A stretch of 64,000 nt of DNA from Cyanobium sp. NAT70 (GTDB lineage: Bacteria > Cyanobacteriota > Cyanobacteriia > PCC-6307 > Cyanobiaceae). The notes under the pieces were generated by a model. The model did not search any database and was not told the origin of the DNA. It saw only the letters and a program-made list of their open reading frames with translations. The position numbers were made by a program, and so were the translations under genes. The stretch spans positions 30,781-94,780 of the forward strand of contig NZVB01000064.1 of assembly GCA_002701375.1 (NCBI GenBank), written 5' to 3'. Position 1 is the first letter of the stretch, and each line of letters begins with the position of its first letter. This document shows, in pieces, positions 8,109 to 41,125 of the stretch.

Positions 8109-10013
8109 ATGACCAACAGCAACCTCCGTACCGAGAACCACTTCGACTACGTCAAGATCACACTCGCTTCACCCGAACGGGTGATGGAGTGGGGGCAACG
8201 CACCCTTCCTAACGGCCAGGTGGTCGGTGAGGTCACCAAACCGGAGACCATTAATTACCGCACGCTGAAGCCTGAGATGGACGGGTTGTTCTGCGAAAAA
8301 ATCTTTGGTCCCTCCAAAGATTGGGAATGCCACTGTGGCAAGTACAAGCGGGTCCGTCACCGCGGCATTGTTTGTGAGCGTTGCGGTGTGGAGGTCACTG
8401 AAAGTCGGGTGCGTCGCCATCGCATGGGCTTTATTAAGCTCGCTGCGCCGGTATCTCACGTTTGGTATCTCAAGGGTATTCCCAGTTATGTAGCGATTTT
8501 GTTGGATATGCCTTTGCGCGATGTCGAACAAATTGTTTACTTCAATTGTTATGTCGTCCTCGATCCAGGTGATCACAAAGATCTGAAGTACAAGCAGCTG
8601 CTCACAGAGGACGAGTGGCTTGAGATCGAAGACGAGATTTATGCCGAGGAATCAGAGATTGAGAACGAGCCGGTTGTTGGTATTGGCGCAGAAGCTCTCA
8701 AGCAGTTGTTGGAAGATCTCAATCTTGAAGAGGTTGCTGAGCAGCTTCGTGAAGAGATTAATGGCAGCAAGGGTCAGAAACGAGCCAAGTTGATTAAACG
8801 ATTGCGCGTCATCGACAACTTCATTGCTACCAATGCTCGTCCCGAGTGGATGGTGCTTGATGTCATCCCAGTGATTCCTCCTGATCTGCGTCCAATGGTG
8901 CAGCTTGATGGAGGGCGATTTGCCACCAGTGATCTCAATGATCTCTATCGCAGGGTGATCAATCGCAACAATCGCTTGGCGCGACTTCAAGAGATTCTTG
9001 CCCCAGAGATCATTGTCCGCAATGAGAAGCGGATGTTGCAAGAAGCTGTTGACGCTCTGATCGACAACGGTCGTCGAGGTCGAACTGTTGTTGGTGCTAA
9101 TAATCGACCGTTGAAGTCACTCAGTGACATTATTGAAGGGAAGCAGGGTCGTTTCCGCCAAAACCTGCTCGGCAAGCGCGTCGACTATTCCGGTCGTTCC
9201 GTCATCGTGGTGGGTCCGAAGTTAAAGATGCATCAGTGCGGCTTGCCGAAGGAAATGGCGATTGAGCTGTTTCAACCATTTGTGATTCATCGCTTGATCC
9301 GTCAGAACATTGTTAACAACATCAAAGCAGCCAAAAAGTTGATTCAACGTGCGGACGATGAGGTGATGCAGGTGTTGCAGGAGGTGATTGATGGTCACCC
9401 AATCATGCTCAATCGGGCTCCAACCCTTCACCGTCTCGGTATTCAGGCTTTTGAGCCCAAATTGGTGGATGGTCGTGCCATACAGCTCCATCCCCTGGTT
9501 TGCCCAGCCTTTAACGCCGACTTTGACGGTGATCAGATGGCGGTACACGTGCCGCTTGCGATTGAGGCGCAGACGGAAGCACGCATGTTGATGTTGGCCA
9601 GCAACAACATCCTTTCTCCTGCAACCGGTGAGCCAATCGTGACCCCGTCTCAGGACATGGTGCTTGGTTCGTATTACCTCACAGCGCTAAAGCCAGAGTC
9701 AGTTAGGCCGGAATTTGGTGATCGAAGCCGCACATTTGCCAGCCTTGAAGATGTCATCCAAGCCTTCGAAGATGAGCGACTTTTGCTTCACGATTGGATT
9801 TGGGTTCGCTTCAATGGCGAAGTTGAAGATGACGACGATTTGGAAGAGCCGATCAAAACAGAATCGCTGAGTGATGGCACCCGTATTGAACAGTGGACCT
9901 ACCGCCGCGAGCGTTTTGATGAAGAGGGTGCGCTGATCAGCCGTTATCTCCTTACCACCGTCGGCCGAGTTGTGATGAATCACACGATTATCGAAGCGGT
10001 GGCCGTCGCCTGA
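8109..10013 (+). CDS. rpoC1: DNA-directed RNA polymerase subunit gamma (cyanobacterial split beta')
   Basis: 634 aa, [15 protein letters not shown] catalytic motif; split organisation typical of cyanobacteria. Confidence 0.99.
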
Positions 10014-10046
10014 TTCGACCGAATTTCTTTCGACCACATTCTCTGA

Positions 10047-14153
<4,107 letters not shown>

Positions 14154-28620: not shown

Positions 28621-31398
28621 ATGAGTTCAATGGCGCCGGTCACGACACTCCCCGACGCCAAGTTGCCTTCTCCGACCTCTGGCATCGATCCGAGCAGTAT
28701 CTATCCATTTCAATTGGATGGTTTTCAGCTTGAAGCCATTGATGCCCTGAATCAAGGCCAATCTCTGGTGGTCAGCGCTCCGACCGGCTCAGGCAAGACC
28801 TTGATTGGTGAGTACGCCATCCATCGGGCACTCGCGCATGGGCAGAAAGTGTTTTATACGACTCCTTTAAAGGCTCTCTCCAATCAGAAATTGCGTGATT
28901 TCCGTGATCAGTTTGGTGAGCATAACGTTGGTTTGATGACCGGAGATCTGAGTGTTAATCGGGAGGCCTCGATTGTGGTGATGACCACGGAGATCTTTAG
29001 AAACATGCTCTACGCAGAAGCTGATGAGCAGGATGACCCCTTAGCCGATGTCGAAGCGGTTGTTCTGGATGAGTGTCATTACATGAACGACTCTCAGCGG
29101 GGAACAGTTTGGGAGGAATCGATCATTCATTGTCCGCCTGTCGTGCAACTGGTGGCTCTATCTGCCACGGTCGCCAATGCCGGTCAGCTCACTGACTGGA
29201 TTGAGAAAGTTCATGGCCCAACACAGCTCATCTTGAGCGATCACAGGCCTGTCCCATTGCGGTTCAGTTTTTGCAGTGCTAAGGGCCTTCATCCCCTCCT
29301 GAATGACCAAGGCACGGGTCTTCATCCGAACTGCAAGGTCTGGCGAGCGCCCAAGGGCCATCAGCGCAAGGGTCGCTCGGCAAGACCGCCGCAGCCTGAG
29401 CCTCCTCCGATTGCATTTGTGGTCTCTCAAATGGCTGAGCGGGAGATGTTGCCCGCCATTTATTTCATTTTTAGTCGCCGCGGTTGTGACAAAGCAGTCC
29501 GTGATCTCGGCAAGCAATGTCTGGTCACCAGAGAGGAACAGGCTCGCATTCACGCTCGTTTGATGGCTTACAGCGAGGCCAATGTCGAAGCGGTTCGAGA
29601 CGGCATTCATGTCGATGCTCTCTTGCGTGGGATTGCTGCTCATCACGCCGGAGTTTTACCGGCCTGGAAGGAATTAATCGAGGAGTTGTTCCAACAGGGA
29701 CTTGTCAAAGTGGTGTTTGCCACGGAAACCCTGGCGGCTGGGATCAACATGCCAGCCCGCAGCACAGTGATCGCATCACTTTCCAAACGCACTGAGCGCG
29801 GTCATCGACCTCTGATGGGAAGTGAGTTTCTGCAAATGGCTGGTCGGGCCGGACGCCGTGGTCTGGATTCGAGAGGGTATGTAGTCACTGTCCAGAATCG
29901 TTTCGAGGGGGTTCGCGAGGCAGGACAACTCGCCACAAGTCCGGCAGATCCTCTGGTGAGTCAGTTCACGCCGAGCTACGGCATGGTGCTTAATCTTTTG
30001 CAGCGCCACGATCTTGAGAAGGCCAAAGAATTGGTGGAGCGCAGTTTTGGTCGCTATTTGGCCAGTCTTGATTTAGTGGATGAAGAGGAGACGCTTGCTC
30101 AATTGCGATTGCAGTTGGCCCAGTTGGAGGGTGTGGCTGGAGATGTCCCCTGGGAGGATTTTGAGAACTATGAAAAGGTTCGCGGCCGTTTGCGAGAGGA
30201 GAGGCGCTTACTGCGGATCTTGCAACAGCAGGCGGAAGAAACCTTGGCCAATGAACTCACACTCGCACTCCAATTCGCGAGTAATGGAACGTTGGTGAGT
30301 TTGAAGGCACCGCAGCTGCGCGGACGGGTCACTCCAGCTGTCATTGTCGACAAGGTGGATGGCCCTGGGCAGTTCCCACTGTTGCTTTGCCTCACCGATG
30401 AAAATCTCTGGATTTTGCTTCCCTGTCAGGCGGTCGTCAGCTTGCATGCTGAATTGAGTTGCCTGCAAGTGGATGGTGTCAGCTCCCCTGATTTACAGCG
30501 CTCAGGAGAACTGCGCCATGGCGATCAGCACAGTGGTGGACTGTCGCTTGCCGTTGCCCATATGGCTCGTCGACATGACATGACGACACCTCAATACGAT
30601 TTGGCTGGAGAAGTGCTCACTCAGGCTCGTTTGGTTCAGCAACTTGAGCAGGACCAGGAGCAACATCCTGCCCATCGCTGGGGTGACCGCAAACAGCTCA
30701 AGAAGCATCGCCGTCGGATGGAGGAGCTGGAGGGGGAAATCGAGGAGCGACAACGTGTGCTCCACCATCGGGCCAACCGCCACTGGGAGACGTTTTTGGC
30801 TCTCATTGAGATTTTGCGACAGTTTGGCTGTTTGGACGACTTAGTGCCAACAGAGATTGGGCGCACCGTTGCTGCGCTGCGGGGGGATAACGAGCTCTGG
30901 CTTGGTTTGGCATTAATGAGCGGTCATCTCGATGAATTGCAACCGTCTGAATTGGCGGCTGTGTTTGAGGCCATCAGCACCGAAGTCAATCGTCCGGACC
31001 TCTGGAGTGGCTTTCCGCCGCCCCCAGCGGCAGAGGAAGTGATGCACGATTTGGCTGGTCTTCGTCGGGAACTGTTGCGGGCGCAGGAACGGCGCGATGT
31101 TGTGGTGCCGGCCTGGTGGGAGCCTGAGTTGATGGGGCTTGTGGAGGCGTGGGCCAATGGTTGTGGTTGGGCAGATCTGATTGCAAATACCTCGCTTGAT
31201 GAAGGGGATGTGGTGAGAATCATGCGGCGCACCGTTGATCTGCTGGCTCAGGTTCCCTATTGCGAAGCAATCAGTGAACAGTTGCGGAGCCATGCTCGCG
31301 AGGCACTCAACGCGATTAATCGTTTTCCGGTTGCTGAGGCTGAGGATCTGCGCTCACAGTCCGGTGGCCTTAATCCAGCCACCGAGCGTCTGGTTTGA
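28621..31398 (+). CDS. Ski2/Mtr4-like DExH-box helicase
   Basis: SAPTGSGKTLIGEYAIHRAL, VVLDECHYMND, LSATVANAGQLTDWI, QMAGRAGRRGLD. Confidence 0.93.
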   Translation: MSSMAPVTTLPDAKLPSPTSGIDPSSIYPFQLDGFQLEAIDALNQGQSLVVSAPTGSGKTLIGEYAIHRALAHGQKVFYTTPLKALSNQKLRDFRDQFGEHNVGLMTGDLSVNREASIVVMTTEIFRNMLYAEADEQDDPLADVEAVVLDECHYMNDSQRGTVWEESIIHCPPVVQLVALSATVANAGQLTDWIEKVHGPTQLILSDHRPVPLRFSFCSAKGLHPLLNDQGTGLHPNCKVWRAPKGHQRKGRSARPPQPEPPPIAFVVSQMAEREMLPAIYFIFSRRGCDKAVRDLGKQCLVTREEQARIHARLMAYSEANVEAVRDGIHVDALLRGIAAHHAGVLPAWKELIEELFQQGLVKVVFATETLAAGINMPARSTVIASLSKRTERGHRPLMGSEFLQMAGRAGRRGLDSRGYVVTVQNRFEGVREAGQLATSPADPLVSQFTPSYGMVLNLLQRHDLEKAKELVERSFGRYLASLDLVDEEETLAQLRLQLAQLEGVAGDVPWEDFENYEKVRGRLREERRLLRILQQQAEETLANELTLALQFASNGTLVSLKAPQLRGRVTPAVIVDKVDGPGQFPLLLCLTDENLWILLPCQAVVSLHAELSCLQVDGVSSPDLQRSGELRHGDQHSGGLSLAVAHMARRHDMTTPQYDLAGEVLTQARLVQQLEQDQEQHPAHRWGDRKQLKKHRRRMEELEGEIEERQRVLHHRANRHWETFLALIEILRQFGCLDDLVPTEIGRTVAALRGDNELWLGLALMSGHLDELQPSELAAVFEAISTEVNRPDLWSGFPPPPAAEEVMHDLAGLRRELLRAQERRDVVVPAWWEPELMGLVEAWANGCGWADLIANTSLDEGDVVRIMRRTVDLLAQVPYCEAISEQLRSHAREALNAINRFPVAEAEDLRSQSGGLNPATERLV

Positions 31399-31598: not shown

Positions 31599-32159
31599 AT
31601 GGCAGCATCAGTGCTTCAGTGCTCAGATCAACACCGTTGTGAGGTTCCACTCAAGGAGATCTCTCTGGATCAATTGCGATGTTTCTTCGCGGAACCATAT
31701 CGACCAATGGCTGCTTTGCTACATCGAAAAAAGCTTAAACATCTAGCTAATCATCGCTTTTTGTATTCATCTAGGCCGTATAAAATATTGCGATATGAGA
31801 TTCAGCCTCAAGTTGTTTTAGTGGTCAAATCCAATACAGATCGTATGGAGATCGAATTTGAAAGTTGCGAAATTTCTGGTCTAGGTGGGTTTGAAAAAAC
31901 TGTTCAATTCCGTTGTCATGCCACGTTGACTCTTGCTCCATTATTGGTGTCTGCTGATGCCGTGGCCAGTCTTCGCTTACAAAAGATTGGAGTCGCATCG
32001 GTCATTCCAGATGCGATGCTTTTAAAGATTGGTCGCAAAGCGTTGAGGCTGGTTTTTGCTCGTTTGCAAGATCGTTGTCAGCGTCGTCTCCCTAGAGCTC
32101 TCCATCAATGGGCTCAACAAGATGGCAAGACAAACGAATCAAGTCAGATTGATGTGTGA
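31599..32159 (+). CDS. DUF1997-like protein
   Basis: Single ORF of about 186 aa resembling DUF1997 (cyanobacterial); assignment by recall. Confidence 0.6.
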   Translation: MAASVLQCSDQHRCEVPLKEISLDQLRCFFAEPYRPMAALLHRKKLKHLANHRFLYSSRPYKILRYEIQPQVVLVVKSNTDRMEIEFESCEISGLGGFEKTVQFRCHATLTLAPLLVSADAVASLRLQKIGVASVIPDAMLLKIGRKALRLVFARLQDRCQRRLPRALHQWAQQDGKTNESSQIDV

Positions 32160-32250: not shown

Positions 32251-33057
32251 ATGAGTACCCGATTGAATGCCATCACTGGCGCCAACGTGTCTCTTGACGT
32301 TGAGAATGTTGTATTGCGTTGTAAGCGCAGGGAGACGGTGTTTTTGACACCACCTTGGACGATGTCATTTCGTCGGGGAGATCATGTTGCCATTCTCTCT
32401 AGCAGTCGCAGAATGAGAGATGTTTTTATCGGTTCTTTGTACGGTTTGGTTGCTCCAGTCTCAGGCTCGATTGTTAGTCATGGGACGGTTAGCTGGCCAG
32501 TTGGTTTGAAGGGCGGTTTGGATGGAAAGTTGACCTTAATTCAGAATTTGCGATTTTTAGCGGGTGTTTATGAGGAATTGTTGGCTCCATTGAATGTTGA
32601 AAGGTTTTTGCAAACATTTCTTGATCTTGCTGGCCTTTCTTCTGGTCAAATGTTGAAAGATTTGAAATCAAAAGATCAAAAGATGTTTTTCGCAATTGCC
32701 TCTCTTGCTTTCTCTTTCGATACGTTCTTAGTTCCTACGGCACAGTTTCTTCAAGGGGGAGTAAAGGATAAATTGGTTCAATGTATCAAGGCTGTGTTTG
32801 AGGATAGAATTGAAAATCGTTGTATGATTACATCGACAACCAATAAGGATTTTCAAAAACAGTATTGCAATAAAGGCATTGTTATTGATGAGGCAGGAGC
32901 GATGGCATTCCAGGGTGATTTGAATGAGTGTTATGGTTGGCTTGAAGCGGCCAGTGATTCTGTATCGAAAGAGGAGGATGATAGTGTCGATGAAAGTGTT
33001 TTCCTGGAAGAGCTTTCGAATGAAGACAGAGATCCTGAGCTCCTTGATATCATTTGA
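32251..33057 (+). CDS. KpsT-like ABC transporter nucleotide-binding-domain protein with degenerate catalytic motifs
   Basis: SGSIVSHGTVSWPVGLKGGLDGKLTLIQNLRFLAGVY matches the KpsT-family post-Walker-A region, but Walker A is SSSRRMRDV, Walker B FDTFLVPT, H-loop ST. Confidence 0.8.
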   Translation: MSTRLNAITGANVSLDVENVVLRCKRRETVFLTPPWTMSFRRGDHVAILSSSRRMRDVFIGSLYGLVAPVSGSIVSHGTVSWPVGLKGGLDGKLTLIQNLRFLAGVYEELLAPLNVERFLQTFLDLAGLSSGQMLKDLKSKDQKMFFAIASLAFSFDTFLVPTAQFLQGGVKDKLVQCIKAVFEDRIENRCMITSTTNKDFQKQYCNKGIVIDEAGAMAFQGDLNECYGWLEAASDSVSKEEDDSVDESVFLEELSNEDRDPELLDII

Positions 33058-33063
33058 TTCATC

Positions 33064-33912
33064 ATGTTTAACTTCTTGCGATTAGCTCTTACCAAGCTCC
33101 AAACCCAAATTTCTATTATTCTTGCGGTATCTGTTTATGCGCGAAATAGACGAGCTTCAGATAGTGCGTTTGGTTCTTGGGAGCCGGTTATTCAACCACT
33201 GCAATTATTGTTCTTTTTAATTGTATTGAGGGTTGGCTTGAAGCTTGTGTTCAAAGGAGGAGGCTTGATGACTCCTCAGGTTGGTGTGATTACATCTGAT
33301 TTGTTTTTCAATCCGATTCTCTTCCTTGGGACGGGCATATCCATAGTTTTTCTTTTCCGCATGATTGCTCTAAAAGCAATCAATGGGTTGAAGTTAAAAG
33401 CACCTCTTTTTTATGCGAGAATCAGTCCATTGGATATTGTTTTGGCTGAAGCGTTGAATGATGTTAGGGCATTGGCATCGATGGCTCTGATTATTTTATC
33501 TTTAACATGGTTTTTTACATGGAGCTTTCGATTTGATAGGCCTGGTCTGGCAATTAGCGCTTATCTTTTGACGGTAATCATGGCCGTTGGTTTCGGCATT
33601 TGTGTGTTGTTTGTTGGCCAATACTTGCCTGCGTTGAAAAGAATTGTCAAGCGTATTCTTCAACGCATCATTTTGTGGACCTCTGGTGTCTTCTTTGCAA
33701 CGTTTGAAGTGCCGGCTCAGCTTCGGCAATTCGTTACATGGAATCCAATTCTTCACGGTGTTGAGTTGTTTCGTTATTCCATTAATGATTCCTATCCAAT
33801 TCCTGGGATTTCCTTCACCTATTTGCTGACTTGTTCGCTTTTGTGTGCTAGCTTTGCTCTACTTTTATACCGTGTAAACGAATCCATGCTGCTCACAAGT
33901 AGCGATGATTAA
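33064..33912 (+). CDS. ABC-2 type polysaccharide export permease, KpsM-like
   Basis: Multi-TM ORF with WNPILHGVELFRYSI...YPIPGISF typical of capsule export permeases; 6 nt after the KpsT-like gene. Confidence 0.82.
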   Translation: MFNFLRLALTKLQTQISIILAVSVYARNRRASDSAFGSWEPVIQPLQLLFFLIVLRVGLKLVFKGGGLMTPQVGVITSDLFFNPILFLGTGISIVFLFRMIALKAINGLKLKAPLFYARISPLDIVLAEALNDVRALASMALIILSLTWFFTWSFRFDRPGLAISAYLLTVIMAVGFGICVLFVGQYLPALKRIVKRILQRIILWTSGVFFATFEVPAQLRQFVTWNPILHGVELFRYSINDSYPIPGISFTYLLTCSLLCASFALLLYRVNESMLLTSSDD

Positions 33913-35161
33913 AGCTCCGATACCGAAAGGTGAAAGTCCTAACGCCTGGGATTCCAACGATTCAGGCAAGGACCCTCAACCTTCAACACTACATTTTCCA
34001 CGTCATCTTGCTGGAGATTTGAGATCGCGTCTGCAAATCGGCTCTCCTGATTGGCTCAGAGTCGGTCGTTTTTTGAAGGGCTTGCTTTCAGCACGAACTT
34101 TTGTCCTGGTTTTTATCGGTCTGTCTGGTATTTATGCGTTCAGTATTGGTCGTAGTCGTTATACCACAACGTCTGAATTCTTTATTCAGCAACCAACGCC
34201 TCTGAATTCAACAGCGTCTTCCATCTTTGGAACGGGTGTTGCTGTGCCTCAGGTGATTAATTCTTTGGTTGATGGTCAATATCTTAGTGTTTACTTGACG
34301 TCACCAAGCATCAAGACAAGGCTTTATCCAAAATCTGATCAACTTGAGAAGCTCTATGCACCTGAAAGGCCAGATATTTTTGCTGGTTTACCTGCTAATA
34401 GTACCTCAGACCAACAACTAGCTTTCTTTAAAAAACAGATTAGTATTCAGCCTCAGCCAATCTCTGGTTCCCTGATCATCAGAACAACTGGTTATCAGCC
34501 TGAGCAGGCATTAAAGTTGAATCAATCATTGTTGACACAGTCTCAACGATTTGTTAATGAGGTTAATCAATCCATTAGTGCAGACCAGAAGCAGTTTGCT
34601 GAAAATGAATTGAAGATCGCAGAGAAAAATTTGTCTGAGGCGACTCAAAGTTTGCAGGATTTTCAAGATCGTTATGGTCAGCTAAGCCCCGAGGTTGAAC
34701 AGCAGACAACATCTACATTTATTGCTCAATTAGAATCCAATCTAGTTGATTTGAAGGTTGAGTTGGCAACACTCAAGCGTCGTTATATTGATCCAGATTC
34801 TCCTGAAGTGGCTTATCTCGCTGATCAAGTTCAAGAGCTAGAACGGCAAATACGTGAAGAGCGTCAGAAAGCTGTTGGGGCTAAAGGGAGAGATCTGAAT
34901 AAATTAACAGCACAATCAGAAGCTTTAAAAAGTGATGTTGAATTTGCGTCTAAATCCTATGAAGCTGCTCGTATTGCGGTGGACAATAGTCGGCGTGAAA
35001 GTCAGCGACAATTAAAATTTATTGTGATGCTTAGTAAGCCTCAGCTTCCATCTGGACAGGATATGAATTGGCGATGGCAATTCTTCCTTGCATCCATTGG
35101 TATTGTGATTGTTGGATGGGCTGTTGGAGGTTTCGTTGTGGCCGCAATTCGTAAGGAGTAG
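33905..35161 (+). CDS. KpsE-like capsule polysaccharide export inner-membrane protein (polysaccharide co-polymerase type)
   Basis: Two terminal TM segments flanking a periplasmic coiled-coil; TTTSEFFIQ, VDGQYLSVYLTSPSI, C-terminal LSKPQLP...; overlaps the permease. Confidence 0.82.
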   Translation: MIKAPIPKGESPNAWDSNDSGKDPQPSTLHFPRHLAGDLRSRLQIGSPDWLRVGRFLKGLLSARTFVLVFIGLSGIYAFSIGRSRYTTTSEFFIQQPTPLNSTASSIFGTGVAVPQVINSLVDGQYLSVYLTSPSIKTRLYPKSDQLEKLYAPERPDIFAGLPANSTSDQQLAFFKKQISIQPQPISGSLIIRTTGYQPEQALKLNQSLLTQSQRFVNEVNQSISADQKQFAENELKIAEKNLSEATQSLQDFQDRYGQLSPEVEQQTTSTFIAQLESNLVDLKVELATLKRRYIDPDSPEVAYLADQVQELERQIREERQKAVGAKGRDLNKLTAQSEALKSDVEFASKSYEAARIAVDNSRRESQRQLKFIVMLSKPQLPSGQDMNWRWQFFLASIGIVIVGWAVGGFVVAAIRKE

Positions 35162-35208: not shown

Positions 35209-38130
35209 CTATGAATCTAGCTGCGTTTTGATTGATTTTAAGAGCTTGCCATTTTTTTTGCGCAATAGATGCTGCCAATGTTCAATATTTTGATTGCAAG
35301 GGTTCTCTTTCAGAAGACTTACCTTGATGAAAGGAAAATTGTTGTCTTCAATCAGTGTGCGCCATTGGAAGTGGAGAACATTTCCATTTGAATTTTTGGT
35401 ATAGATGCTTTCGAGACTCATATCTGCGTTGCTTAACAGTGTCGACAAGCCGACTTCGCAGGCCTTGACGAGCTCTCTTTTGCTATTGAACATGGGCAAG
35501 CTTTCCCAGAACGTCTGAAATGCCTGGCTGCAGATAGCCTTCTGTCGAAACACAAGGAATGACGATTGCAGGTGATAGCTGTACATCAGATCATCTGTTA
35601 GTCCTACCACATCTGCCGATGAAAGACGGATGCGTTTAAACAAGTGTTTGAGTGGATTGACGGGGCCCCAAAGACTGTCGTTGGTTAATATGATTTCGTT
35701 TCTTGTTTGAATATCTTCCTGGCAGAATCGGATGCCAGTTTTCCAGCTTCCGAAGTCATAGCCTTCATTGTCTCGAATAATAATGCTATGGCAAATGCCT
35801 TTTAGTCTCTGAATGATTTGTCGGTTTTGTTTAAGTGTTGGTGTGGCGCCAATGAAGACAACATCCGCATGGCCTTTGTAGGCACGTAGTAAGGGAATGA
35901 TGTCTGAGCGTAATTCACCATTGGCACTAAATTGTGCAAAAAACAACAAAGGTCTGTGGCTCTTAGTCGGACGCTTCTGTTCTGTCCAGCTATAAACTAT
36001 TTTTTCTTCGACTTTTCTGGCTGATTCTGTTTGTCGAGGTTGGATCCCAAAATGATTGGTGTGTGGATGGAGGTGTTGACTGGTTAATGGGTCGCCCTTG
36101 TCATAGAGATCAGCATGATGTTCCCGTAATAATCCTTGCTCACGCTGTTGACGAGCTAATGCTTCACCATCTAAATCCTTGCCTCGACTTTTTCCCTCGT
36201 GGTGAATGATTTTTGGATAGGGTGTGATCATGATCTTGTAACCAAGCTGGCGGATCCGAAGGCAAAGATCAACGTCATTAAAAGTGACTGCGTAGGCTTC
36301 ATTGAAACCTCCCACATCATCAAAAAGTTCCGCTCTCACCAAGAGGCAAGCCGCAGAGGCGGCGCTGACTTCTTCTTCAACACGTAAAGGGAGGTAGTCA
36401 TCCAAGATGGCTTGATCGCCAATGCTTTTGCCCGGTTCACGTAATGCTCTCCGTTCGCCTCGGATCAGAACAACCCCTTGGTGTTGAGTGGCACCATCCG
36501 GATAGAGGAGTTTGCTGCCAACGGCGCCTGTCGTTTTAAAAGCAAATGGGGCCAGTAGCTCTTCCAATATGTTGGCTGATTGAAACTCAATGTCGTTGTT
36601 TAGGAAGAGGAGGAAATTGCCAGAACAGTGCTTGCGTGCCACATTGTTAATTGTGGCAAAATTGAAGTCGATAGCAAGATCTATGATTTTGATGTCCTTC
36701 GTTGAATGTAAACTACTTAGCCATTCTTTTGTAGGCTCTTTCACGCTGCCATTATTGGCCAAAATAACTTCGTATTCTGTCTGGCCTGCGAAGGATCGAA
36801 TGGATGACAAACAGGTTTGCGTTAGCTCAACGTTGTCTTTGAAGGGAATAATGATTGATACTTTGATGTGTTGCTCTGGCTGAAACCGGAAGCGTTGACA
36901 ACCAGGAATCTCAGGATGCGGTTGGATCGCACCGCCTTCGGCGAGAAACCTGGCTGACTGGCTGGTCAGCATGTTGTTGATGGCATTGATTTGATTGTTG
37001 TTGAACCAATGTCGCTCCATCGGAGATCCGACATCAAGGATCGAGGGATTCAGTGCCGGTGTTCTGATTAATAATGATTCCCCACAATGTCCGCAGGACA
37101 CGTTTGAGTCGAGGAGCTGCAGCGTCAGGTTGACCAGCAGTTCATGCATGCTGTTGGTCGATGCAGGCCAATCAAGATTGGTCAAATGCCCGGCACGGAT
37201 GGTGATTAATCCACCCAGTGCTCCTCGCATAAGCAACCTTGGAGCTGTTGGCTCCACTCGGCATTGAGGGTTCCCGATCGCCTCCGGGTCCGTCAGCGTC
37301 CAGGCGATGAGTTCATCGCTGCTGCACAGGGCGAGATTTCGATGTTGATGCCAATAGATCGAGAGATGTTCGATGGCATGTAAGGCCAGTCGATCGCTCC
37401 GATGACAGAAACTCACCGGCGTGTCTGGGTGCAGCTCGGCCAGGCGTTGAGCTAATGGCGTGAGTGCTTGACTCTGGGCTGCCACAATCTTGTCCCAGCC
37501 GGCGGCTCTGCCGAGGCGGATGGCGTGCTGGATCTCAGCGTCGATCACAACAAGCCACGGCTGTTGTATCGGTCGCCGTGCTGCGCAGATCGGTTTGGCT
37601 TCGACCTGGATTCGATAGCGATCTAAACAGGTTGCGACGGCTTCTCCCTGATGGAACGCATCGCGGCCATAGCTGTTCAGATGCGCCAGAGCACTGAGTT
37701 GTTCGCGCTTGCAGATGGCACGATGCGAGCGACGCAGTTCGGCTGCATACGCATCGATGCTTAAAGCGGGTAGATCGTCATAGAGGGGGCGTTCCCCTCG
37801 CAGAATTTGATTCAAGATTCCGCTGCTGATCAGATGATCGGGTTCCTTCAGATCGGGATGTGCCGCTTGGAGAGCATCCAGATGAAAACCGGCTTGATCG
37901 GGGGTCCAACCGTCGGGATCCACCAGAAGCTCGACCGGTAGAAGCTGGGGATGGAGGAAGCGATGGTCGAGATGGCGATGCTGTGGCTTGAGAGCGTTGC
38001 GAATGGCCAGCCCATCCCATGGTTCGCGTCGGTAACGACGCAAGAGTCGCAGTAGTGGACCATGCTCACCGCGTTGTTGGCTGTTGTTCAGCGCTTTTTG
38101 AAGTCGTTCCGTGGCACGTTCCATCTCCAA
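35209..38130 (-). CDS. Large multidomain glycosyltransferase: degenerate N-terminal region, central GT2, C-terminal RgpF-like (rhamnan synthesis F) domain
   Basis: VSIIIPFKDNVELTQTCLSSI, LFLNNDIEF, FNDVDLCLRIRQLGYKIMITPYPKIIHHEGKSRG (GT2); NEGYDFGSWKTGI...ILTNDSLWGPV (RgpF). Confidence 0.85.
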   Translation of the reverse strand: MEMERATERLQKALNNSQQRGEHGPLLRLLRRYRREPWDGLAIRNALKPQHRHLDHRFLHPQLLPVELLVDPDGWTPDQAGFHLDALQAAHPDLKEPDHLISSGILNQILRGERPLYDDLPALSIDAYAAELRRSHRAICKREQLSALAHLNSYGRDAFHQGEAVATCLDRYRIQVEAKPICAARRPIQQPWLVVIDAEIQHAIRLGRAAGWDKIVAAQSQALTPLAQRLAELHPDTPVSFCHRSDRLALHAIEHLSIYWHQHRNLALCSSDELIAWTLTDPEAIGNPQCRVEPTAPRLLMRGALGGLITIRAGHLTNLDWPASTNSMHELLVNLTLQLLDSNVSCGHCGESLLIRTPALNPSILDVGSPMERHWFNNNQINAINNMLTSQSARFLAEGGAIQPHPEIPGCQRFRFQPEQHIKVSIIIPFKDNVELTQTCLSSIRSFAGQTEYEVILANNGSVKEPTKEWLSSLHSTKDIKIIDLAIDFNFATINNVARKHCSGNFLLFLNNDIEFQSANILEELLAPFAFKTTGAVGSKLLYPDGATQHQGVVLIRGERRALREPGKSIGDQAILDDYLPLRVEEEVSAASAACLLVRAELFDDVGGFNEAYAVTFNDVDLCLRIRQLGYKIMITPYPKIIHHEGKSRGKDLDGEALARQQREQGLLREHHADLYDKGDPLTSQHLHPHTNHFGIQPRQTESARKVEEKIVYSWTEQKRPTKSHRPLLFFAQFSANGELRSDIIPLLRAYKGHADVVFIGATPTLKQNRQIIQRLKGICHSIIIRDNEGYDFGSWKTGIRFCQEDIQTRNEIILTNDSLWGPVNPLKHLFKRIRLSSADVVGLTDDLMYSYHLQSSFLVFRQKAICSQAFQTFWESLPMFNSKRELVKACEVGLSTLLSNADMSLESIYTKNSNGNVLHFQWRTLIEDNNFPFIKVSLLKENPCNQNIEHWQHLLRKKNGKLLKSIKTQLDS

Positions 38131-38207: not shown

Positions 38208-39050
38208 ATGTTGGAGTTTCCGATGCGCCGTCGACCCCTGGTGGAGTGTTGCAAACAGCAGGGATGGACTCCCCATTACCTCCATCAAAGTCCGGCAGAA
38301 GGGGAGACCCCAGTGGATCTTTTGGTGAAAGAACTCCAGGACTTAAGGGATGCGGGTCGGGGGGACCTTGCCGGTTGTTTATTGGAGGTTGCGGCCCAGC
38401 AGGGAGTAGAGGATGAGCGTTTGCAGCCGAAGTCCCAGGGGAATGGGGTTGAGCAGCAGTCCAGCCAGTCAGCAGATGTTCAGGCCCAGGACAGCGAGGC
38501 GAGGCAGGAGACAACTCGTGTTCTCGAAGCGCTTCGTAAGGTCTGTCGAAAAGCTGGCGTGACGCCTTTACGACTGACGGACTCCGTTGGCGATGCTGTA
38601 GAGCAAGCCTGTGCGAAGGAGATGCAGGCCGCTCGCCAGCAAGGCAATCATTCTTTGGTGATCGCGCTGGGTCGCAAGGCGCTTCGATTAGGTCTGGATC
38701 ACCCAAGAATTCACAGCAACCTTCAGCGTTCCGAACGGTTGTTGAGGCGTGAAACCCTTTTGGAAGAGGTCAATGCACTGCTCCAGGGCAAGCGATCCGC
38801 TAAGGAAAAGGCGGAGCACATGATGCTGGAGGCCCTGATTGATGATCCAGAGTTCAAGCTTTGTCGAACGTTGCTAAACAATCGATTGCGAGAGCGCCTC
38901 AGTCGTGGCAAAGGCGATTCTTTCGCGGATGAGTTATTAGATCATCGGATTGGTCTGGAATTTAATCGGCGACGTCTGGAGCTTCTCGAGCAACGACGCG
39001 GTGTTGGTTCTGATCGCGGTGTTGGTTCTGATCAAAGTGCTGATTCTTGA
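38208..39050 (+). CDS. Hypothetical helical protein in the polysaccharide cluster
   Basis: Long ORF, ATG at 38208 (MLEFPMRRRPLVECCKQQGW), charged helical sequence, no family recognised. Confidence 0.65.
   Translation: MLEFPMRRRPLVECCKQQGWTPHYLHQSPAEGETPVDLLVKELQDLRDAGRGDLAGCLLEVAAQQGVEDERLQPKSQGNGVEQQSSQSADVQAQDSEARQETTRVLEALRKVCRKAGVTPLRLTDSVGDAVEQACAKEMQAARQQGNHSLVIALGRKALRLGLDHPRIHSNLQRSERLLRRETLLEEVNALLQGKRSAKEKAEHMMLEALIDDPEFKLCRTLLNNRLRERLSRGKGDSFADELLDHRIGLEFNRRRLELLEQRRGVGSDRGVGSDQSADS
38998..39033. repeat. 18-bp tandem repeat, two exact copies (GCGGTGTTGGTTCTGATC)
   Basis: Read directly at the 3' end of the 38208-39050 gene; encodes repeated GVGSD. Confidence 0.9.
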
Positions 39051-41125
39051 ACCTGGTAGGCATGAAGGGAATGATCGCGTTGAGGCAGGTAGGACAACAC
39101 GCGTTCGTAGGCATGAGCCAGGGAGCCATCCCTGGCATGGCCAGGCTCGAAGGCTTCTGGGGTCGGTAAGGGGGTCTGGAGCAGGTTCGGGAGCAGGGCA
39201 GTCGCTCGGGTCCAAAACATGGTGCCGCGAACAAAGACACGGCTCGGATCAGGCGCGAGTCCGTAGATCGAGAGCAGGTTGTTAACGGCGGCATCGTTGG
39301 CGGCCACCACTTGATCCCTCTGGCTTTTGCGCATCAGAAATGGTTCCGGTGCGAGGAGACCGAGATCGGAGTCGCGTTCAAATCGGTTCAGAATTGTTTT
39401 TACATTGCGACGGTTTCCGAGTAAGCCATCGAGCAGTCCGCGCCGCCAGCGTTGCCCTTTGCTGGCGCCAGAAACTTGCAGTGATTTTTTGGTGTGGATC
39501 TTGAGGATCAAATCCACGGGAGCCCATGATTGATTGGAGAGATGCCGAATGGCCTCAAAGAAGGGGCTGATGTCCATACCTCGGTCTGGAACGGAAAGAA
39601 GACACAGGCTTCGGAATCGTTTTGAGAACATGCGCTCAAGGTTTGCTCTGAGTTCTGTGCTGTCTTTATGGATGGGAATGGTGATGTAGAGATCTGTTGA
39701 AGGGCCCGCGACGGCCTCAAGATGTCGTGAAAACTCAAAACCGAGATCGGTGTAATAGAGGTGAACGATCACTGCGATCGAGGGACACTTCTGATCGGTC
39801 TCCGTTGAGTCTTGCCGGGCCGGCATCGGTTGGATGGCGCGATGGCAGCGGTCGAGAAATGCTTCAAGGCCGAGGCGTTGGCTGATCACCTGCCTGTCCT
39901 TGGCCTCGGGTGCGGGCTGATCCTTTAGCTGTTGCAGTAACGGAACCACCGTGTCCACTTGGTGATCGTCGTAAATCAGCACACCGCTGCGTCCCTCGAG
40001 CACATCCACCAGACCAGTGCTGCGCGGCAGCAGAACTTTGCAGCCGTGCAGATAGGCCTCTATAGCGGCGAGAGGAAAAGTGTCCTCAATCGAGGAGAGG
40101 AAAAAGATCTCCGTGTTGCGTAGAACGCGCTGCAAGTCATGGCTGCTCAGATGGCCGTGATGGGTCACCACAGCATTGAGAGGAGTCGCCGTGTCCCTGA
40201 TCTGACCGGCCCAGTGAAATCGAAATCCTTCCGGAGTGAGTCGTTCCGCGCAGGCATTAAACAAGCCCACTCCTTTGCGCTCTTTGACACTGCCGCTCAT
40301 CAAGATTTGACCGCTGTTGCGTCGGGACAGTCGCGACGAGGTGGCCGGCAGGGTGGGGTTGTGAAGGATCGTGTGGCTTTTAGGTGTTCCGTAGGGAGCA
40401 AAATCAGCACACTGACGTTGACAGCACAACAGCAGATCTAAGTACGGAATGGTAGAACGAACGCGCTGTTTCTGGTCGTCCGGTAAACGATCAAGAATCC
40501 AACGCGTTTCATGCAGATAGCCATAGATTCGACCTTGTTTGCAATAACGCTGGACCGACTTGGCTAGATGTACAACGTTGCAAATCTGTTGAAGTCCATT
40601 GATGATAATGGCGTCATGGTTGTTGAACAGTGCGTCGATTACGTCCGGTTCGGCATTGTTGTCAAGTTGAACGGACCGGAGTCGTGGCCCGCCGTGGTGA
40701 TGCAGAAAGTTGAGATAGTGAGAGATCGGTCGGAAGACACCGGTGCTGAGACTGAAGTTGTTGCCCAGGACGAGGAGGGATCGAACCTCGCAGAGCATCG
40801 CTGGACGCGTCTTGGCGCTCCATTCCTTGATTAAGTATGCCTCCAGGTTGCTGTTGAAATACCAGTTGTGTTGATGATTTAGACGCTCTCTGATGATTCC
40901 AGTGTTGGTAGGTCGAGTTGTCGTAAGGCTGTCTTGATTGATATGGCTGGGAGCCAACAGAACTCCATTCCATTCCAATCGTTCCCGTTCGTTGGCAACG
41001 ATTTGCTGCATGGCGCCATTCGCCTCATGGCGTTGCTCGATCAAATCAAGAAGTTGCTTTGCTTCGCTAAATTGCGCCTCGGCAATATGCATCCGATAGA
41101 GTTGTAGCAAACTTTTGTTGCTCAT
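39032..41125 (-). CDS. Glycosyltransferase (GT4-like) with C-terminal RgpF-like domain
   Basis: ILMSGSVKERKGVGLFNACAERL, FFLSSIEDTFPLAAIEAYLHGCKVLLP (GT4-like); VIVHLYYTDLGFEFSRHL...LILKIHTKKS (RgpF-like). Confidence 0.8.
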   Translation of the reverse strand: MSNKSLLQLYRMHIAEAQFSEAKQLLDLIEQRHEANGAMQQIVANERERLEWNGVLLAPSHINQDSLTTTRPTNTGIIRERLNHQHNWYFNSNLEAYLIKEWSAKTRPAMLCEVRSLLVLGNNFSLSTGVFRPISHYLNFLHHHGGPRLRSVQLDNNAEPDVIDALFNNHDAIIINGLQQICNVVHLAKSVQRYCKQGRIYGYLHETRWILDRLPDDQKQRVRSTIPYLDLLLCCQRQCADFAPYGTPKSHTILHNPTLPATSSRLSRRNSGQILMSGSVKERKGVGLFNACAERLTPEGFRFHWAGQIRDTATPLNAVVTHHGHLSSHDLQRVLRNTEIFFLSSIEDTFPLAAIEAYLHGCKVLLPRSTGLVDVLEGRSGVLIYDDHQVDTVVPLLQQLKDQPAPEAKDRQVISQRLGLEAFLDRCHRAIQPMPARQDSTETDQKCPSIAVIVHLYYTDLGFEFSRHLEAVAGPSTDLYITIPIHKDSTELRANLERMFSKRFRSLCLLSVPDRGMDISPFFEAIRHLSNQSWAPVDLILKIHTKKSLQVSGASKGQRWRRGLLDGLLGNRRNVKTILNRFERDSDLGLLAPEPFLMRKSQRDQVVAANDAAVNNLLSIYGLAPDPSRVFVRGTMFWTRATALLPNLLQTPLPTPEAFEPGHARDGSLAHAYERVLSYLPQRDHSLHAYQVQESAL

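Follow-up and report, generated by a model that had tools for sequence, protein, structure and literature searches.

What becomes of a capsule exporter when its motor subunit has lost every motif for using ATP? ABC transporters are defined by ATP-driven nucleotide-binding domains (NBDs), and the question is raised by an open reading frame (ORF) at 32251-33057 (+) of the window, the stretch of 64,000 nucleotides of cyanobacterial DNA that was analysed here. A first-pass annotation had described this ORF as a catalytically dead KpsT-like protein in an intact capsule-export operon and had offered three inferences: a scaffold or regulator, a partner of a second active NBD encoded elsewhere, or a part of an exporter driven another way. 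Sequence, trees and structure prediction establish that the ORF descends from KpsT, that its ATP motifs have been lost and that it is retained under selection; it has been inherited together with KpsM and KpsE. The altered gene order, the gained acidic tail, the one ancient origin and the intact relatives in sister genera, all described below, lay outside what the annotation could see. The scaffold-or-regulator option is the one that we favour: on balance, the ORF appears to be a pseudo-ATPase subunit, with a structural role, of a KpsM-KpsE group-2-type capsule exporter. In the literature searched, no account of a degenerate cyanobacterial KpsT was found, where absence is not proof of novelty.

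Homology, predicted fold and lost motifs of pseudo-KpsT

The ORF, termed pseudo-KpsT, comprises 268 codons with an ATG start and zero internal stops. A phmmer search of PDB sequences matched its residues 39-222 to the solved KpsT of Schlegelella thermodepolymerans (8tsi/8tsh) with E=3e-17, and TarH/TagH were the next matches; the KpsT homology claimed by the annotation was thus borne out, whereas its alignment "without gaps" was not, as a few gaps of 1-3 residues are present. With this match to KpsT and no match to Pfam ABC_tran (PF00005), even at E=1, the protein is homologous but degenerate. An AlphaFold2 model built with 23 sequences reached a pLDDT of 84 and a pTM of 0.81, and only residues 1-9 and 238-268 fell below pLDDT 50. 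When the model was compared with the PDB by Foldseek, the top matches were the NBDs of TarH, KpsT, TagH and Wzt, with E down to 6e-15 and, for the best matches, TM of about 0.7-0.8 by target. Combined, the model and these matches indicate that the NBD fold is retained in the prediction, as the annotation had supposed, and pseudo-KpsT has the homology and the fold of a KpsT-type ABC ATPase.

The motifs of such an ATPase are gone, at the positions first described. Alignment and site counts place SSSRRMRDV (residues 50-58, 32398-32424 (+)) at the Walker A position, where GxxGxGK[ST] is expected, FDTFLVPT (residues 156-163, 32716-32739 (+)) at Walker B, with Pro for the Asp and Thr for the catalytic Glu, and ITSTTNK (residues 193-199, 32827-32847 (+)) at the H-loop, which has lost its His. 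At the signature position (YSSGM/LSGGQ), phmmer, alignment and site counts all give KSKD (residues 139-142, 32665-32676 (+)), and the D-loop has disappeared as well. Site counts were made on 64 dead rows from 41 genomes, several genomes being entered twice, and on 21 intact rows. Neither the Walker B Asp nor the catalytic Glu occurs in any of the 64 dead rows, the column of the latter being Lys/Arg in 46; Lys is found in the Walker A column of 3/64, and His in the H-loop column of 0/59 rows listed for dead proteins. Every ATP residue is kept in all 21 intact KpsT rows. Judged by its sequence, pseudo-KpsT lacks the motifs for ATP binding and hydrolysis and is predicted to be an inactive NBD.

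Two segments stand apart from this loss. The SWPVGLKGGLDGKL block (residues 81-94, 32491-32532 (+)), which corresponds to the Q-loop of KpsT and the stretch that follows it, is retained; its W and P are nearly invariant across dead and intact proteins (Trp in 64/64 and Pro in 61/64 dead rows). The topology suggests that this block, with the residues that follow it, lies on the permease side of the NBD, and SWP..L would form a putative KpsM-docking block. The C-terminal tail (residues 238-268, 32962-33054 (+)) is acidic, predicted to be disordered and characteristic of the dead clade, in which it has a median length of 47 aa and a net charge of -9 over the last 30 residues, compared with 26 aa and -3 in intact KpsT.

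Distribution, selection and history of the motif loss

Homologues of pseudo-KpsT were found in 27/61 genomes, all 27 in the genus of the window, and none of these homologues retains Walker A, signature, Walker B or H-loop. A profile search of 401 genomes of the family yielded further homologues, the strongest of which were aligned. The motif loss extends to 41 genomes of several genera in one cyanobacterial family: those of the window's genus, ten g54 and two g69 genomes, one g33 and one g58. Intact KpsT proteins carrying GxNGAGKST, YSSGM, the Walker B Asp-Glu and the H-loop His were found in the sister genera g29, g41, g56, g61 and g75 and in a second g33 genome. Three g54 relatives (L219, L222 and L223) have a signature remnant, [ST/SS/SV]GMKDR, and have lost Walker A, Walker B and H-loop; they look like intermediates. 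One homologue (L088) comes from a MAG with the title "uncultured proteobacterium"; since all other named loci are Synechococcus, its contig is probably cyanobacterial and mis-binned. In a plasmid collection, only ordinary ABC ATPases with <60% identity were matched, the best among the matches listed at ~30%.

In the KpsT tree, a 100/100 branch separates all dead proteins from the intact proteins and the Schlegelella reference. Long-branch attraction could affect this tree, and less so the KpsM tree, which is free of the motif-loss artefact and in which the permeases of dead-KpsT loci all fall on one side (100/100). Multiple independent losses were rejected, one change being sufficient in both trees. 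The trees therefore point to a single, ancient origin of the motif loss, and the clade-wide loss that the annotation had made a touchstone is found in 41 genomes of one clade and is not recent.

Gene order also differs between the two groups. It is M-T-E (KpsM, KpsT, KpsE) in 21/21 intact loci and T-M-E in dead loci with KpsT inside the cluster; in the window's group, pseudo-KpsT opens a tight T-M-E cluster, and in group B of the same genus it is located about 16-19 kb from KpsM. The kps genes adjoin a DUF1997 gene in both dead and intact groups (14/21 of the intact loci). The change of order would be accounted for if the gene had been duplicated and its active copy then lost; no genome with both active and dead copies was seen.

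The reading frame is open in all 41 genomes, complete single-contig ones among them. Pairwise dN/dS (Nei-Gojobori, core region, codon bootstrap) was 0.09-0.19 for the dead proteins, the highest upper 95% limit being 0.32, and 0.02-0.05 for intact KpsT of the sister genera; the dN/dS<1 for which the annotation had proposed to look is observed and indicates purifying selection. Divergence of KpsT relative to that of KpsM was 1.23 among dead-clade members and 0.63 among intact ones. Combined, these estimates indicate that the constraint on the dead proteins is weaker but real.

The exporter locus and the search for another motor

A KpsM-like permease gene (33064-33912 (+)) starts after a gap of 6 nt, and a KpsE-like polysaccharide co-polymerase gene (33905-35161 (+)) overlaps it by 8 nt; these coordinates, like the open frame of 268 codons, agree with the annotation. 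The permease matches KpsM in sequence (E=3e-13) and its model (pLDDT 83) has solved KpsM chains as the five best Foldseek matches, 8tsh_C being the best, so that the locus possesses the KpsM-type permease of a group-2 capsule exporter, with an NCBIfam score (67) under the equivalog cut-off of 300. The KpsE-like protein matches the TIGR01010 family (E=7e-54) with 183 bits, below the curated cut-off of 437, and is a candidate for the PCP-3 type. The TM2-TM3 coupling loop of KpsM, FYARISPLD (33409-33435 (+)), is conserved with KpsM proteins of intact systems, and the alignment shows FYxx[IV]xP[LI]D to be retained in dead-KpsT loci. A joint loss of KpsM substrate residues and NBD was considered and rejected, as no clean signal was obtained: canyon positions 35, 94 and 187 are basic (Arg or Lys) in most dead-clade members, and Trp45, Arg89 and Gln181 vary also in loci with intact KpsT. 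Upstream, the cluster is preceded by the gene for a DUF1997 protein (31599-32159 (+)), a conserved neighbour of the exporter genes, and by a Ski2-like DEAD/DSHCT helicase gene (28621-31398 (+)), the anchor of the syntenic locus. Large glycosyltransferase-type genes adjoin the exporter at 35209-38130, with GT2 and RgpF domains, and 39032-41125 (-); homologues of both also adjoin the locus in G022, G025 and G028.

Of the genus's complete genomes (completeness of 98% or more), 16 carry the KpsT-type together with the KpsM-type gene and 4 carry neither (Fisher p=2e-4, uncorrected for relatedness), and pseudo-KpsT is tied to KpsM by linkage and co-occurrence as a KpsT would be. KpsC/KpsS-type (PF05159) and OPX (PF02563) genes were found in 10/10 complete carriers tested, and neither was present in the two complete non-carriers tested (G001, G021). 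The linker enzymes and OPX of a group-2 exporter are therefore encoded in the genome, with PF05159 and PF02563 over cut-off, and it is the active NBD that is missing by sequence. In the window's own genome (G000), contig C19 encodes a KpsS-like protein (NF050054, E=1e-83, under the equivalog cut-off), a Capsule_synth repeat, OPX, NeuB-like and PseF-like proteins, and no PF00005 domain. What had been called an intact capsule-export operon is intact as regards KpsM and KpsE, and the KpsC/KpsS-type and OPX genes are on another contig. The NeuB-like synthase, fused with CBS, SAF and TIM barrel domains, and the PseF-like cytidylyltransferase (L175:3963-6266 and 10012-10698) are encoded near the KpsS-like gene, and the capsule of this genome may therefore contain nonulosonic acid.

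One genome departs from this pattern. G002 (87% complete) keeps a dead KpsT with low dN/dS and a sulfotransferase-like gene in front of it, and KpsM, KpsE, KpsC/S and OPX genes were not found there. At the syntenic site, dTDP-sugar genes (rfbB/rfbD-like by eye; L250:1-3557 on contig C3) follow ski2-fumC in place of DUF1997-KpsM-KpsE, and pseudo-KpsT lies about 15 kb away. If real, the occurrence of KpsT without KpsM in G002 would imply a role independent of KpsM. The sulfotransferase-like gene, recognised by eye from HxGxHKTAST.IQ and without Pfam match, directly precedes pseudo-KpsT in group B (examples of such genes are L250:17174-18298 in G002 and L045:7801-8907 in G017). Its homologues flank KpsT in g54 and are present in most capsule-carrying genomes of the window's genus and in 0/4 of its complete non-carriers. 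A sialidase-like gene, again identified by eye, stands on the opposite strand beside pseudo-KpsT in g69 and g54 (L217:2146-3339 and L214:1013-2389).

A search of the window's genome with solved KpsT yielded, apart from the dead protein, only two generic ABC ATPases with E of about 3e-12, a value that intact NBDs attain in almost all genomes searched; on this basis, the presence of an intact KpsT in another part of this genome was rejected. As G000 is only 85% complete, the NBD inventory was repeated with G009, a 98% complete carrier with few NBDs and the smallest complete carrier genome, against G001, a genome that lacks a KpsM of this type. Each of the 27 PF00005 domains recognised in G009 has an orthologue in G001 (40-89% identity, most >58%), indicating that G009 contains no exporter-specific ATPase; a second intact NBD dedicated to the system, as in heterodimeric exporters, was not found in this comparison. 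Nor was a hidden NBD gene found in the g54 gaps beside KpsT in the two loci read, L214 and L217, where the gap genes are sulfotransferase-like and sialidase-like. Some dead-KpsT genomes of g54 and g69 encode NBD proteins of 420-500 aa, the size of Wzt.

Competing explanations and known systems

In the reading that we favour, pseudo-KpsT would most likely dock on the coupling loop of KpsM as a structural platform, probably homodimeric, and other factors could make contact with it through the gained acidic tail. ATP hydrolysis in this subunit would then not drive the cycle of KpsM, and export would draw on ATP-independent glycolipid migration plus another force, or on a borrowed ATPase. In KpsMT-KpsE, glycolipid binding in the KpsM canyon was reported and ATP-independent migration within the canyon suggested, and in this best-studied homologue one substitution in Walker B (KpsT E151Q) is enough to abolish the secretion of capsule (PMC11041684). 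From these findings, an exporter with a dead KpsT would need another energy source or a borrowed ATPase, and the best-studied homologue sets no precedent for an exporter that works when its own NBD provides no ATP-derived energy. Counting against an exporter subunit are G002, where KpsT was found without KpsM, and the 16-19 kb between the two genes in group B. It is possible, and we propose it only tentatively, that an entire lineage of abundant marine cyanobacteria exports capsule by an ABC transporter that does not use ATP at its own NBDs, the NBD serving as a structural clamp and the drive coming from glycolipids that migrate independently of ATP, from proton-motive force or from a coupling with polymer synthesis.

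Rather unlikely, in our view, is an exporter that is still driven by ATP, with the dead protein paired with or swapped for a shared housekeeping ABC ATPase. MsmK is shared in this way among bacterial carbohydrate importers (PMC4519317), and there are ABC exporters in which one site of the heterodimer is degenerate (PMC12038006). At least 27 intact NBDs are encoded in carrier genomes, and the Wzt-sized NBD proteins of some dead-KpsT genomes in other genera would also be available. However, each G009 NBD has an orthologue in a KpsM-less genome, which leaves no exporter-specific partner, and the best intact matches that the window's genome offers to KpsT do not surpass those found nearly everywhere. 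In the known degenerate-site exporters, one intact NBD is encoded with the system. Of the second active NBD suggested by the annotation, no dedicated candidate was found and it is this shared housekeeping NBD that stays in contention. It is improbable that pseudo-KpsT has left the exporter and now acts, coupled to the sulfotransferase-like gene next to it, as a regulator of capsule synthesis or sulfation or as an adaptor in these processes. In group B, where it is apart from KpsM, KpsT directly follows that gene, slightly overlapping or abutting it; homologues of the gene flank KpsT in a second genus, G002 has retained the pair where KpsM was not found, and the acidic tail has been gained. Against this, KpsT heads the tight T-M-E cluster of the window's group with its 6 nt gap, co-occurs strictly with KpsM in complete genomes, is dead in G009 where no such sulfotransferase-like gene is found, and has its best-kept residues in the block thought to face KpsM.

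Two further possibilities concern the protein itself. The retained fold, and a catalytic Glu replaced by Lys/Arg in most relatives, a change that is consistent rather than random, could suit a non-canonical active ATPase in which other residues have taken over nucleotide binding; this is very improbable given the loss of the P-loop glycines, Lys, Ser/Thr, Walker B Asp, signature and H-loop, in whose places different subclades carry different residues. A decaying pseudogene or a MAG sequencing artefact is barely credible. In the dead clade KpsT does outpace KpsM in divergence, and in the intact one it lags behind, but the frame is open in 41/41 genomes, several of them complete, residues are invariant and dN/dS is well below 1 (0.09-0.19), and a recent pseudogene or artefact was rejected on these grounds.

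Marine Synechococcus has been pictured as having lost most polysaccharide-export genes (PMC4594306); this picture is changed by carriers that hold a divergent KpsM/E/C/S/OPX set, the NBD of which escapes Pfam recognition. Marine Synechococcus-type cyanobacteria have long kept a dead capsule-exporter motor under selection, with no dedicated replacement found, and it becomes directly testable whether export by an ABC-2 type system is possible without an ATPase of its own. Among known systems, the heterodimeric exporters MsRv1273c/72c, MRP1 and TAP likewise have a selected NBD site with lost catalytic residues, but theirs is accompanied by one active site within the same complex, whereas the pseudo-KpsT system encodes no second intact NBD and the P-loop is also gone. 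The polysaccharide NBDs Wzt, TarH and TagH are structural neighbours of pseudo-KpsT by Foldseek and, unlike it, active ATPases; the gate helix of Wzt and TarH is missing from KpsT (PMC11041684). With KpsT of KpsMT-KpsE (8tsh/8tsi), pseudo-KpsT shares homology, the NBD fold, the SWPVG..GG..G.LT block and KpsM and KpsE neighbours, and it differs in lacking the nucleotide-binding and hydrolysis motifs and in having the acidic C-terminal tail. The intact KpsT proteins of g29, g33, g61, g75, g56 and g41 are likewise located beside orthologous KpsM and KpsE, but have kept their ATP motifs, the M-T-E order and a dN/dS of 0.02-0.05, and they provide a natural control for a selected, ancient and clade-wide loss of ATP motifs.
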